Of a DNA stretch of 64,000 bases, positions 3,952-21,800 are shown piece after piece; position 1 is the stretch's first letter; each line of letters begins with the position of its first letter. The stretch is from positions 1,254,001 to 1,318,000 of the forward strand of contig JACJID010000002.1 of NCBI GenBank assembly GCA_014138725.1. Direction: 5' to 3'. The notes beneath the pieces are model-generated. The model was given only the letters and a program-made list of their open reading frames with translations, had not been told where the DNA came from and made no database searches. Both the position numbers and the translations under genes were made by a program. The stretch is from Kutzneria viridogrisea. GTDB taxonomy: Bacteria; Actinomycetota; Actinomycetes; Mycobacteriales; Pseudonocardiaceae.

Positions 3952-4281
3952 ATGGACAAAAACAGCCCCTCACCTGCGGAGAGCCCCGCACCCCGCCCCC
4001 GTACCCCGATCGTGGTCCCCGAGGCCACCGGGGTGCGGCCCGGCCACCCTCGCAGCAGTCTGCGCGGTGATGCCCACCCGAACAAGAACGGGGACACCGC
4101 CGTGAGACAGCCGCTCACCCAGGCCCAGGCCGACGGATTGGCCTGTGTCGCCTGCGGACGGGACTACCTCCACGACCCGGCCCGCACCCCCAGTAGCCCA
4201 GTTGGCCAGTCGGCCACGGGTTCGCAGATATTTGCCTGCGCCCCGGGGTGCGTCGACCAGGCCGCCGGGGGTGCGCGGTGA
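3952..4281 (+). CDS. small zinc-ribbon-like protein upstream of the integrase
   Basis: A 109-residue protein with a GGTGGAGG ribosome-binding site. The first 65 residues are low complexity. The C-terminal part has the conserved look CVACGRDY, then SPVGQSATGSQIFACAPGC, i.e. a C-x2-C plus C-x3-C pair that could bind zinc. Similar short zinc-ribbon proteins are widespread in actinobacterial genomes. The stop overlaps the integrase start (GTGA), so the two are translationally coupled and probably co-regulated. A role as recombination directionality factor is conceivable from position alone and is not shown by sequence. Confidence 0.6.
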   Translation: MDKNSPSPAESPAPRPRTPIVVPEATGVRPGHPRSSLRGDAHPNKNGDTAVRQPLTQAQADGLACVACGRDYLHDPARTPSSPVGQSATGSQIFACAPGCVDQAAGGAR

Positions 4282-5924
4282 CTGTCACCGAACTGTTCCC
4301 CGCGCACCCGTTGGTCACGCCGGAGGAGCAGCGCGGCACGCGTGCCGTTATCTACCTGCGCCTATCCGACCTCCGCGAAGACCAGTTGACAGCCGATGGC
4401 ACTGTCGAATCGTTCGAGGACCGTGAGCAGCAACTGCGGAAACTCGCCGCACGTCTCGGCTGGACCGTGGTCGACGTGGTCCAAGAGAACGATTTGGCCC
4501 GGGACAAGAACGGGAAGAGCCGGGGCGTGTCCGCATTCAAACGCAAGCGGATCACGTTGCCCGACGGGTCGACGGCGATGCGGGTAGTTCGTCCCGGATT
4601 CCGGAAGATCCTGGACGGGATGTCGGCGGGGCGCTGGAATGCCCTGCTCGCCGAAGACCTTGACCGTACGATGCGTGACCCGCGCGACCTGGAAGATTTC
4701 ATCGATATTGCCGAGTCGCGCAAGATCAATGCGCGATCAATGTCCGGATCGCTGAGTTTCACCGACGGCGGCACTGACGGTGAGATTTCCATGGCGCGCA
4801 TCATGGTTACCATGGCGAACAAGGACAGCCGGAACACCAGCCGCCGAGTGCGCGAGGGGAAACGGCGCCAAGCGCAGGCAGGGAGGCCTAACGGCGGTGT
4901 CCGCCGATTCGGTTTTGAGCCGGACGGGATCACCATCCGCCCGGCCGAGGCCGAGATCATCCGTGACTGCTCGATTCGGGTACTCCAGATCGATCAGCGC
5001 ACCAAGAAAATGACGTCGTTGCGCAGCCTGGCGGCCGAACTCCGTGCCGCGAACGTGCCGACCGTGACCGGAGCGAAATGGACGTCCATCGCACTGCGCG
5101 CGATCCTGCTCCGGCCCCGCAACGCCGGGATCATGGTGCACCAGGGCGAGGAGATCGGTCGGGCGCCGTGGGAGGCGATCGTCCCTGAGGACACGTTCCG
5201 GGCCGTGGTCGGTCTGCTCACCGACCCGTCACGGACCCACAACCCGGGTGCCCCCGCGACCTGGTTGGGTTCCGGGATCTACCTGTGCGGGGTATGCGAT
5301 GACGGCGAGACGACGTGCAACGTCAAGGGGGGCAGCGTCCAGGCCGAGGACGGCACCCGGTCCCGTGACTACCGGTGCAAGGAGCACGCGCACCTCAAGC
5401 GCAAGGCCGCGTTCGTGGATGCACTGGTGTGCGAAGCGGTGATCGCCGAACTGTCCCGCCCGGACGCGATCGACCTGATTCCGCAGATCGAAAGGTCCAC
5501 CGTGGATCTTCCCGCGCTGCGGGCGGAGGCCACACGAATCCGGGCCAACCTGGACGAGATGGCGGCCGACCGGGCGAGGGGCCTGATCGATCGTGCGCAG
5601 TTGATCGCGGGAACCGAGGCGGCCAACAAGCGGCTCGCCGAGATCAACGACCTGTTGAGCCTGCACACTGCCCCGTCTCCACTCACCCCATTGATCGGTG
5701 TCGAGGACGTAGCCGCGGAGTGGGCTGCGCAGCCGACGAGCGTCCAGCGGGCGATCCTGGACACCTTGTTCGAGGTGACGATCCTGCCGACCAGTCAACG
5801 CGGGCACGGGTTCGATCCGGAGAGCGTGCGCATCGTGCCGAAGGCCAAGCGGCAGGCCAAGCGGAAGGCGACGCCGCAACGACGGGGGTCGAAGACCACC
5901 CTCCCGGAGCCGCTCACCGCGTGA
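4278..5924 (+). CDS. int: large serine recombinase (phage integrase)
   Basis: A 548-residue serine integrase that would catalyse site-specific attP x attB recombination. The catalytic domain starts with AVIYLRLSDLR, placing the nucleophilic serine at residue 30. Further conserved catalytic-domain pieces are EDLDRTMRDPRDLEDFI and the long helix with GEISMARIMVTMANKDSR. The recombinase domain follows (GRPNGGVRRFGFEPDG). Then comes a zinc ribbon (YLCGVCDD, DYRCKEHAHL) with a predicted coiled-coil insertion, and a basic C-terminal tail. The GTG at 4,278 overlaps the previous stop and is preferred over the ATG ten codons earlier. Attachment sites should be next to this gene. Confidence 0.96.
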   Translation: MTVTELFPAHPLVTPEEQRGTRAVIYLRLSDLREDQLTADGTVESFEDREQQLRKLAARLGWTVVDVVQENDLARDKNGKSRGVSAFKRKRITLPDGSTAMRVVRPGFRKILDGMSAGRWNALLAEDLDRTMRDPRDLEDFIDIAESRKINARSMSGSLSFTDGGTDGEISMARIMVTMANKDSRNTSRRVREGKRRQAQAGRPNGGVRRFGFEPDGITIRPAEAEIIRDCSIRVLQIDQRTKKMTSLRSLAAELRAANVPTVTGAKWTSIALRAILLRPRNAGIMVHQGEEIGRAPWEAIVPEDTFRAVVGLLTDPSRTHNPGAPATWLGSGIYLCGVCDDGETTCNVKGGSVQAEDGTRSRDYRCKEHAHLKRKAAFVDALVCEAVIAELSRPDAIDLIPQIERSTVDLPALRAEATRIRANLDEMAADRARGLIDRAQLIAGTEAANKRLAEINDLLSLHTAPSPLTPLIGVEDVAAEWAAQPTSVQRAILDTLFEVTILPTSQRGHGFDPESVRIVPKAKRQAKRKATPQRRGSKTTLPEPLTA

Positions 5925-6028: not shown

Positions 6029-6208
6029 ATGGCCACACCACCCACCCCGGAATTCCTGCGCGACTACGCGCGCCAACTCGTCGCTACCCATCCGCCGCTC
6101 GAACAGTGGCAGCGCGACAGGATCGCACCGCTGTTGCGGCCCGCGCGCAGGCAGCCGCGGACGCCGCACGTGGTGGACGCCGCGCCCCACGGCGGTGCTG
6201 ACCGGTGA
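6029..6208 (+). CDS. small phage protein, 59 aa
   Basis: A short gene of 59 residues (MATPPTPEFLRDYAR at its start) that begins six bases after the TAGGTT promoter element and overlaps the next gene by GTGA. It is basic and Pro-rich with no recognisable domain. The promoter position and coupling argue that it is real. Function unknown. Confidence 0.55.
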   Translation: MATPPTPEFLRDYARQLVATHPPLEQWQRDRIAPLLRPARRQPRTPHVVDAAPHGGADR

Positions 6209-6936
6209 CGCGCCTCAACCAGATCATCGCGATTGAGAAGGGCATCAAGGGGGATACGGCGCGGCGCGTGACGGACCTGCATCACCTGGTGCAGCGCCCG
6301 GCGCCGCTGTCCGGGATCGCCCGCACCTACCAGCCCCGCGACGACGACGGCGACGCCCTGCCGCCGGAGTCCACTCAGGTTCAGGTCCGCGCCCATGAGG
6401 TGCTGGCGCAGGCCGCGGCGGCGATGACGCGCCTGTTCGATGTCGTCGCCACGAAGGACGAGGCGAACCGCTCTGCGTCCGCGGACGTGCTCATAGACGG
6501 TGAGACGCTGCTGGAGCGGGTCCCGGTAACCACGTTGCTGTTCCTGGAAAAGCAGCTTGACGACCTGCGCGCGTTCGTCGGGCGGCTCCCCGTGCTCGAT
6601 CCCGCCGAGGAGTGGGTCTATGACTCCGCGCGGGACTGCTACGCGACCGTACCGGCGAAGACGACGCGCACCCGGAAAATCCCGCGCAACCACGTGCTGG
6701 CCGAGGCGACGCCGCAGCACCCGGCGCAGGTGCAGGTGTGGACTGAAGACGTGATCGTCGGGACCTGGACCACGACCAAGCTGTCTGGCGCGCTGCCCGC
6801 GGCACGGGTCGCGGAACTGGTCGCCCGAGTCACCCAACTCCGTGAGGCTGTGCAGGTGGCACGCGAGGCGGCCAACACCAGCGAGGTACAGGACGTGCAG
6901 ATCGGCAAGGCAGTTTTTGACTTCCTGCTAACCTGA
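6205..6936 (+). CDS. conserved actinophage/plasmid protein (DUF7873-like)
   Basis: A 243-residue protein beginning TRLNQIIAIEKGIK and containing TYQPRDDDGDALPPES, a signature block of a conserved family often seen on actinobacterial mobile elements next to integrases or small regulators. The central part is acidic and helical (FLEKQLDDLRAFVGRLPVLD), and the end has a DVQIGKAVFDFLL helix. I recognise the family but not a biochemical role. The gene is followed at once by a hairpin at 6,940-6,961. The family name is from memory and should be checked against Pfam. Confidence 0.7.
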   Translation: MTRLNQIIAIEKGIKGDTARRVTDLHHLVQRPAPLSGIARTYQPRDDDGDALPPESTQVQVRAHEVLAQAAAAMTRLFDVVATKDEANRSASADVLIDGETLLERVPVTTLLFLEKQLDDLRAFVGRLPVLDPAEEWVYDSARDCYATVPAKTTRTRKIPRNHVLAEATPQHPAQVQVWTEDVIVGTWTTTKLSGALPAARVAELVARVTQLREAVQVAREAANTSEVQDVQIGKAVFDFLLT

Positions 6937-6939
6937 GAC

Positions 6940-6961
6940 TTCCCCACCGGAGCGTGGGGAA
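6940..6961 (+). terminator. hairpin after the 6,205-6,936 gene
   Basis: TTCCCCAC and GTGGGGAA form a perfect 8-bp stem with a 6-base loop starting four bases after the stop codon. There is no T-tract, so it may be a weak terminator or an RNA-stabilising stem. Its look resembles a single type I-E CRISPR repeat, but there is only one copy and no spacer series. Confidence 0.45.
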
Positions 6962-7104
6962 TGAGCACAAGCTCAGCATCACGATCACGCTGACATCGTG
7001 GCCACAGTGGAGGGTCAAACCCTTCTGGCGGTCGCGACTCACACTCAGATTCTTGCTCCAACTTCAGCATCGCCATCGATCGCTAGATCAACTGCACGCG
7101 GGCG

Positions 7105-7182
7105 ATACCGTCGAGGTTGCCGGTTCGAGTCCGGCCCGAGCCTCCACATGGCTCGGTGGCTCAATGGCAGAGCGTGACGCAT
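7105..7182 (+). tRNA. circularly permuted tRNA-like gene (3' half upstream of 5' half)
   Basis: The order of parts is reversed. First come anticodon-stem 3' strand CGTCG (7,109-7,113), variable loop AGGTT, T-arm GCCGG-TTCGAGT-CCGGC (7,119-7,135), acceptor 3' strand CCGAGCC (7,136-7,142), T and CCA (7,143-7,146). After a CAT linker come acceptor 5' strand GGCTCGG (7,150-7,156), TG, D-arm GCTC-AATGGCA-GAGC (7,159-7,173), G and anticodon-stem 5' strand TGACG (7,175-7,179). All four stems pair when the halves are rejoined: acceptor 7/7, D 4/4, T 5/5, anticodon 5/5 with one G-U. No matching 5' or 3' partner for either half is found in normal order nearby. The anticodon is uncertain: joining ...CAT to ATAC... 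would give a 7-base loop with anticodon TAT, but position 33 would be A instead of T. Remnants of two tandem tRNAs are the main alternative. Confidence 0.6.
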
Positions 7183-7236
7183 CGTTACGTTGACTCGTGT
7201 GCGCCTGTGCTGGCGTGTGTAACTGGTGGCACACAT

Positions 7237-7269
7237 GGACCCCGGGGACTGGATACCTCCCCGGGGTCC
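7237..7269. terminator. strong hairpin between the tRNA-like gene and the convergent small membrane gene
   Basis: GGACCCCGGGG (7,237-7,247) and CCCCGGGGTCC (7,259-7,269) form a perfect 11-bp stem with an 11-base loop. It lies downstream of the permuted tRNA-like transcript on the plus strand and 20 bp after the stop of the minus-strand gene at 7,290, so it could end transcription from both sides. Confidence 0.6.
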
Positions 7270-7289
7270 CCTTATGTCCTGAGCACGGC

Positions 7290-7475
7290 TCACACTGGGC
7301 TGTGGCCGTCTCGGTCGGCCAGGGTCTGCACCTGAACAGACAGGTCGTCGAGGCCTTCGCGAACGAGCACCTCCAGGCGATCAATGCGGCGGGTGATGGT
7401 GCCGACGGTGCAGGCCGTGACGAGGGCACCGGTAGCGGCGACCAGGAGGCCGAGCGCCGTGGTGTCTGTCGACAT
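7290..7475 (-). CDS. small single-span membrane protein
   Basis: A 61-residue protein. The ATG at 7,475 has a GAAGGGA ribosome-binding site and is chosen over the 40-residue upstream extension. One membrane helix (ALGLLVAATGALVTACTVGTI) is followed by a charged, coiled-coil-like tail (IDRLEVLVREGLDDLSVQVQ). It lies on the strand of the putative repressor and downstream of it, so it may be expressed in the lysogen. Superinfection exclusion would fit but is inference only. Confidence 0.55.
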   Translation of the reverse strand: MSTDTTALGLLVAATGALVTACTVGTITRRIDRLEVLVREGLDDLSVQVQTLADRDGHSPV

Positions 7476-21676: not shown

Positions 21677-21752
21677 TCCGGTGTAGCTCAAGCGGTAGAG
21701 CGGCGACACGTGCCACGTGCCGCACTTGCAGGTTCGACCCCCGCCACCGGAG
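21677..21752 (+). tRNA. tRNA-Gly(GCC)-like gene with lengthened anticodon stem
   Basis: Acceptor strands TCCGGTG (21,677-21,683) and CACCGGA (21,745-21,751) pair perfectly. The D-arm GCTC-AAGCGGTA-GAGC and the T-arm GCAGG-TTCGACC-CCCGC (21,728-21,744; one A-C mismatch) are canonical. Between them the best anticodon arm is GCGACAC-GTGCCAC-GTGCCGC, a stem of seven base pairs with one A-C mismatch instead of five. Its loop has T33, anticodon GCC and A37. The discriminator base is G and CCA is not encoded. Both are unusual for glycine tRNA. It may be a functional tRNA, a decaying one or a tRNA-like decoy. Confidence 0.6.
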
Positions 21753-21800
21753 CGAGGCCGGGCACATCTGGCACGCCCCGTCTTGGCAGACGAAAGCCCC

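Follow-up and report, generated by a model that had tools for sequence, protein, structure and literature searches.

A permuted tRNA-like sequence in the actinobacterium Kutzneria viridogrisea is probably part of a structured noncoding RNA of approximately 340 nt that is related to bacterial Y RNAs and partnered with a DUF7873 protein. Comparison with homologs shows that the full element consists of two predicted Y-RNA-like hairpins in tandem, modules A and B, and the permuted sequence corresponds to module B. In the copy found in the window (the whole 64,000-nucleotide stretch of DNA that was analyzed), module B is intact and module A decayed. The linkage of the RNA to DUF7873 across many bacteria and phages speaks for a partnership between the protein and the RNA that is related to Y RNAs, and ties an uncharacterized, widespread protein family to one specific noncoding RNA. 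The features of the window copy are listed in Table 1.

Table 1. Coordinates of the DUF7873 gene, the RNA element and its parts in the window, and of recurrent R1 matches in other genomes
Feature	Position	Strand	Basis
DUF7873 gene, 243 aa, proposed protein partner	6205-6936	+	Pfam PF25283, 344.2 bits, residues 1-242
Whole RNA element, ~340 nt	6937-7277, edges approximate	+	Homolog comparison, folding
5' hairpin immediately past the DUF7873 stop codon	6940-6961	+	Predicted fold; like hairpins by eye in homologs
Decayed module A and spacer	6993-7081	+	R1 model 1-126, 41 bits, 89 nt against 126 positions
Conserved spacer (ACTCAGATTCTTGCTCC...TTCAGCATC)	7043-7071	+	Comparison with alignment A5
Y-RNA-like unit containing module B	7088-7196	+	RF02553 YrlA match
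Anticodon-side stem, strand 1, CGTCG	7109-7113	+	Read from sequence, family test
Variable loop, AGGTT	7114-7118	+	Read from sequence
Module B T-arm	7119-7135	+	Read from sequence, alignments
Module B acceptor 3' strand, CCGAGCC	7136-7142	+	Sequence, covariation alignment
Module B acceptor linker, TCCACAT (discriminator, CCA, CAT)	7143-7149	+	Sequence, family linker survey
T and CCA, then CAT, inside the acceptor linker	7143-7146, then 7147-7149	+	
Module B acceptor 5' strand, GGCTCGG	7150-7156	+	Sequence, covariation alignment
Module B D-arm	7159-7173	+	Sequence, covariation alignment
Anticodon-side stem, strand 2, TGACG	7175-7179	+	Read from sequence, family test
G+C-rich 3'-end hairpin, terminator-like by position only, without T-run	7237-7269	+	Sequence, predicted fold
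Recurrent R1 matches away from DUF7873 (similar others exist)	G487:C2:474526-474646; G459:C2:445546-445666; G353:C1:6523114-6523233		R1 search

The initial annotation described a tRNA-like sequence in which the 3' half precedes the 5' half and all four stems pair when the halves are rejoined. Reading of positions 7109-7179 of the forward strand confirmed the four stems, with one G-U on the anticodon side, together with TTCGA, the D-loop GG and an encoded CCA. A permuted-module scan of both strands returned this module (7119, score 20) as the single match in the window at a score of at least 18, and 20 dinucleotide-shuffled windows gave a mean of 0.35 matches per window at that threshold and 0.00 at a score of at least 19. 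On folding, the 6936-7277 region has a z-score of −3.87, none of 100 shuffles being equally stable. The minimum-energy fold contains the T-arm, acceptor and D-arm of module B, and the centroid retains the acceptor alone. The remnant of module A consists, by eye, of a T-arm-like hairpin at ~7010-7025, with the acceptor and D-arm unrecognizable. A terminator scan found none at the 3' end of the element, and the TTAAACG motif of relatives was not seen by eye in the window copy. An antisense frame across the module (7088-7429, reverse strand) reads RAGLEPATSTVSP; strings of this type are common among database proteins and may arise from frames that run antisense to T-arms.

The element lies between a serine recombinase gene (4248-5924) and HTH genes in a prophage-like region, and the proximity of the module to the HTH genes bears out the phage-region setting that was first proposed for it. 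A 47.8-kb virus contig of IMG/VR (L104), which starts 176 bases before the gene for a protein identical to the window DUF7873 protein, seems to be the provirus of the window itself. Within the prophage-like region, module B has been kept and module A has decayed. We rejected an att site or integration remnant, since the sequence is present in one copy in its own genome and is conserved elsewhere.

The YrlA model of Rfam (RF02553) aligns over its full length, positions 1-114 of 114, to 7088-7196 of the window with 38.5 bits (E 4e-7 for 381 bases), a score below the Rfam gathering score of 69. Full-length matches were also obtained in three relatives, with 37.1 (L021), 36.3 (L002) and 32.9 bits (L020). 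The cut-off is harsh here because the TROVE (Ro60) loci of the class reach just 30 to 50 bits: seven of the 10 such loci (L195, L196, L197, L200-L203) have a YrlA match, all in that range, and curated annotation of Y RNAs is thus probably incomplete for this class. Weak YrlA matches are unspecific, with ordinary adjacent tRNA and tmRNA genes of L021 scoring 25.7 and 19.3 bits, and the scores of two other loci (L003 and L005, 24-26 bits) are approximately level with this background. The weak outer pairing of GGCGAT with ATCGTT, noticed at the outset, maps to the basal stem in the YrlA alignment. Two TROVE loci match RF01656 (ceN72-3_ceN74-2, a nematode sRNA), with 36.2 bits at L194:2123-2186 and 37.7 bits at L196:2219-2327 (reverse strand), against a cut-off of 38; we take this family to be a relative of animal Y RNAs.

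Structural conservation was assessed in 85 non-redundant tandem elements, obtained from 125 two-module loci (L104 left out) by removing near-duplicates and loci with short flanks. The acceptor stems form on average 6.93 of 7 pairs in module A and 6.95 of 7 in module B, compared with 4.86 and 4.22 for swapped partners, although counts for the T-arm, acceptor and D-arm derive in part from sequences selected by the scanner for pairing. The covariation score of module B was 0.600 versus 0.185 when shuffled (alignment A4, hand-picked: 45 sequences, comprising the window, L002 and 43 of 67 references), and that of module A was 0.486 versus 0.131 (alignment A5, hand-picked: 41 of 80 sequences); in neither case did any of 500 shuffles reach the observed score. 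The acceptor stems thus covary strongly, and the two halves covary across homologs, the check by which the initial annotation had proposed to judge the pairing. The anticodon-side stem, which was not used in selection, scores 5.06 versus 4.28 for swapped partners (sd 0.09) in module A and 5.28 versus 4.14 (sd 0.12) in module B, and basal helix 2, likewise unused, scores 6.78 versus 5.66 (0.10). Basal helix 1 scarcely exceeds swapped partners (6.01 versus 5.73, best control 5.96). On alignment A4, 49% of the cells in the anticodon-side columns are paired, which we attribute to the stem being misaligned, as its position varies.

The linker that closes the acceptor stem ranges from 4 to 47 nt in the 85 elements, and reaches ~118 nt in a relaxed scan. 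NCCA is present in the linker of 34/85 A modules and 35/85 B modules. The base following the acceptor is A in 73/85 A modules and T in 65/85 B modules, and the next base is C in 77/85 and 82/85, respectively. With its discriminator and C bases and its variable linker, this end resembles a tRNA end yet is closed by the linker. Since linker length is variable and NCCA is found in a minority, no single precise excision product is conserved.

The genomic association was examined in 169 loci, which are the 172 loci with DUF7873 (tblastn, E ≤ 1e-10) minus the window, L001 and L008, and which include the likely provirus L104 and some near-identical copies. At least one module is found within 800 nt downstream of DUF7873 in 158 of the 169 loci and at least two in 125, and there are none upstream (0/169) or on the reverse strand on either side (0/169 each). 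Modules with a score of at least 19 number 259 in the 133 kb of sense downstream sequence versus 13 in the other 3138 kb. Of the 11 loci missed by the scan, four are explained by longer linkers (L032, L084, L137 and L146), two have modules farther downstream of DUF7873 (L108 and L183), three yielded the RNA to covariance model R1 (L160, L161 and L182), and one carries it on the opposite strand (L060). No RNA was found in L024 by the module scan or R1. By eye, the extra sequence between DUF7873 and its RNA in L108, L160, L161 and L183 is an inserted gene.

Model R1, which represents module A and the spacer and was built solely from elements behind DUF7873, was searched against 296 genomes of the class with 11 first-look candidates per genome and stricter filters, under which weak copies elsewhere may escape. 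There were 19 hits of at least 87 bits in 19 genomes, all 19 within ~310 nt behind DUF7873 on the same strand, and the best hit away from DUF7873 had 48 bits. Four further DUF7873 genomes (G385, G449, G469 and G556) and the K. viridogrisea genome itself have R1 matches of 26-41 bits at the same place; R1 has no hit in G493, a genome whose DUF7873 match is fragmentary. Full-length R1 matches of ~43-47 bits and ~120 nt recur away from DUF7873 in many genomes of one genus, and either a tRNA pair or a further tRNA-like RNA may lie behind them.

More distant BLASTN matches placed the module in Microbacterium phages and two tandem modules in Streptomyces and Nonomuraea replicons, and the same module was later found in Arthrobacter and Gordonia phages. 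Within the window's own family, the RNA is apparently uncommon as judged by DNA similarity: 11 of 297 genomes have a DNA match, and by eye the RNA is present only in K. viridogrisea itself, G123 and G289. In Microbacterium phage Percival, the module (L002:3986-4102, R1 49 bits) stands right after tRNA-Lys, and an annotated RtcB-like RNA ligase gene is found ~1.8 kb upstream; DUF7873 was not detected in the stretch of this phage that was examined. With the Percival module as query, BLASTN also returned hits in hundreds of phage records; among the matches listed, the weak ones that carry annotation fall on ordinary tRNA genes, in many cases neighboring pairs. A match in a Pseudomonas plasmid was likewise discarded as an ordinary tRNA-Leu. 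Two further observations concern relatives. Gordonia phage Phendrix has a tmRNA match (L021:1208-1736, RF00023, 89 bits) with no counterpart in its listed annotation, and L011 (G272:C24:506297-506332) contains, by eye, a normal-order tRNA-like sequence with a long abnormal anticodon region.

The window protein is a clear member of DUF7873 (PF25283), a Pfam family of unknown function, with 344.2 bits against a cut-off of 27, and is 51-61% identical to six relatives. PHROG, NCBIfam and PADLOC searches returned no match and no defense-family match. An AlphaFold model is a confident alpha/beta structure (pLDDT 92.3, pTM 0.69), and a PDB search with it found nothing at E < 0.001 and thus no tie to a known RNA-binding fold; Ro60 is not named among the best 50 of its 289 matches. 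A sequence search against solved structures gave no convincing match. One viral structure, BFVD A0A514TZW7, matched at E < 0.001 (E 3.5e-4) with a poor TM of 0.22/0.20, and the Vibrio phage Vp_R1 protein A0A2H5BQ40 matched weakly (E 1.5e-2, probability 0.99, TM 0.41/0.55). Relatives were taken from the best 80 of at least 490 bacterial loci and the best 80 of 90 viral loci. By record titles, the bacterial loci are mostly Actinomycetota, with others from Chloroflexi, Armatimonadota, Acidobacteria and Polyangiaceae; several of the non-Actinomycetota records come from metagenome bins and may be misbinned, and Ktedonospora formicarum SOSP1-1 (Chloroflexi) is a named strain. The profile also matches Deinobacterium chartae, a control genome. 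Ten neighboring frames picked by script at five chromosomal loci are unrelated or without a family, one being a transposase-type integrase core, which suggests that the gene and the RNA are a self-contained pair.

An unlikely reading is that the element is an ordinary bacterial Y RNA on which Ro60 acts from elsewhere, with DUF7873 as an accessory protein. It is favored by the tRNA-like module shared with YrlA and by the distribution of the Ro60 (TROVE) domain: in a sample of 296 genomes of the class, DUF7873 is found in 25, TROVE in 36 and both in 16, so that TROVE occurs in 16/25 genomes with DUF7873 versus 20/271 others, a co-occurrence confounded by lineage. In four of the 16 genomes (G335, G353, G478 and G556) both genes are on one contig, at least 68 kb apart, and the remaining twelve have them on separate contigs. 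A Ro60-like gene is present in the same locus in 6/169 cases by tblastn with the longest stop-to-stop frames of TROVE loci, although two queries (L199 and L203) lie on the strand opposite the TROVE match and are probably not TROVE; five of the six are confirmed by Pfam (L094, L137, L141, L148 and L176), the sixth being L004, and in L137 a PNKP-phosphatase gene lies between the Ro60-like gene and DUF7873. Against this reading, TROVE was not found in the K. viridogrisea genome, and a search of 15 phage or virus records, some of them fragments, found it in just one. A Ro60-stem signature, GGCGASGGNTACTTC, which we picked out by eye in TROVE loci and which is not a validated binding site, occurs with up to two mismatches in 7/11 TROVE loci (six of which were used to derive it), behind 0/169 DUF7873 genes, and anywhere in 49/169 loci. 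Allowing a single mismatch leaves five occurrences, one in each of five loci, and the six loci that have a Ro60-like gene show none. Its absence from the Ro60-like loci and its chance matches elsewhere make it neither universal nor chance-free.

Distinctly improbable is a cis-acting element in the 3' untranslated region of the DUF7873 mRNA, serving autoregulation, stability or processing and yielding no free RNA. The position directly behind the gene would fit (in the 125 two-module loci, the first T-arm starts a median of 92 nt past the DUF7873 protein match), as would the result of a promoter scan of 6100-7400, which covered the sigma-70-like type and found none. The large size, the two tRNA mimics, the displaced copies (L108, L160, L161 and L183) and the opposite-strand copy (L060) instead suggest an independently working RNA. 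There is very little probability left for the permuted tRNA gene, yielding a functional, spliced or two-piece tRNA, that the initial annotation put forward on the strength of the tRNA stems, TTCGA, D-loop GG and encoded CCA of the window copy. The rejoined halves lack an anticodon loop, the strands continuing into the longer stem of the YrlA alignment; the linkers vary and mostly lack NCCA; and most relatives hold two modules in one element behind DUF7873. What stands of that description is a genuine permuted tRNA-like structure, and its alternative suggestion, a tRNA-like RNA with another job, is supported by the YrlA match and the DUF7873-linked family. A search with ARAGORN, without permuted mode, found only a tRNA-Gly at 21677-21753 in the window, and Rfam at curated cut-offs, which is not a permuted-tRNA search, found nothing there; the ARAGORN tRNA-Gly(gcc) accordingly has no Rfam tRNA family match at gathering score. 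A chimeric tRNA of the 5' half of module A and the 3' half of module B was rejected (mean 4.36 of 7 acceptor pairs, 7/7 in 3/85), as was a tmRNA, the tmRNA models giving no match to 6920-7300 up to E 10. Barely credible, finally, is an origin by chance or by deletion within a tandem of tRNA genes. The decayed module A of the window copy would suit such a deletion remnant, which the initial annotation had itself named as a case against its reading, but modules that covary and follow DUF7873 at 158 of the 169 loci, with no shuffle matching at a score of at least 19, do not fit such an origin for the family.

We therefore return to the DUF7873-linked tandem relative of Y RNAs. By comparison with homologs, each hairpin ends in an inside-out tRNA mimic, composed of a T-arm, an acceptor stem closed by the linker, and a D-arm, and the "anticodon" end of the mimic opens into a longer stem. 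We infer that DUF7873 binds the RNA and that both act as a ribonucleoprotein. More tentatively, by analogy with Ro60 and Y RNA, the mimics might dock tRNA-binding enzymes or RNA-decay or repair machinery, or serve as tRNA decoys. We give roughly even chances to the broader proposal of a second class of Y-RNA-type ribonucleoprotein that does without Ro60. It would be a self-contained pair of DUF7873 and its tandem RNA, maintained both in large phages and in the chromosomes of several phyla, and the double tRNA mimic would give each RNA two tRNA-shaped docking heads. The pair offers a two-component system for testing the roles of tRNA-mimic RNAs without Ro60 in bacteria and phages, and may help account for the tRNA look-alikes of certain phages that carry tRNA sets or RNA-repair genes.

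Permuted gene order is known from other RNAs. Permuted tRNA genes occur in algae and archaea, and the window module resembles them in having the 3' half before the 5' half, but differs in having no anticodon loop to rejoin. In two-piece tmRNA genes (RF04321), the T-arm side comes first; here, too, the T-arm and acceptor 3' strand precede the acceptor 5' strand, with a possibly removable linker, whereas the window module has a full D-arm and no match to tmRNA models. The closest likeness is to YrlA, in which the permuted T-arm, acceptor and D-arm are likewise set inside a hairpin with a basal stem, as reflected in the full-length model match. A review (PMC8394870) describes the tRNA-like domain of YrlA, its modification by DusA and TruB and the tethering of PNPase, with YrlA joining Rsr and PNPase, and a paper on the Salmonella RNA-repair operon (PMC7790460) suggests that this domain could competitively inhibit an anticodon nuclease. 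Both describe bacterial Y RNAs as partners of Ro60. The name DUF7873 was not found in the literature searched, which lay outside the primary bacterial Y RNA papers, and within that literature the tandem, DUF7873-linked form of Y RNA is, as far as shown, new. In contrast to the Ro60-partner Y RNAs, the element usually consists of two tandem modules, so that the mimic is doubled, follows the DUF7873 gene rather than standing beside Ro60, and, at up to two mismatches, lacks the putative stem signature seen in actinobacterial Ro60 loci.
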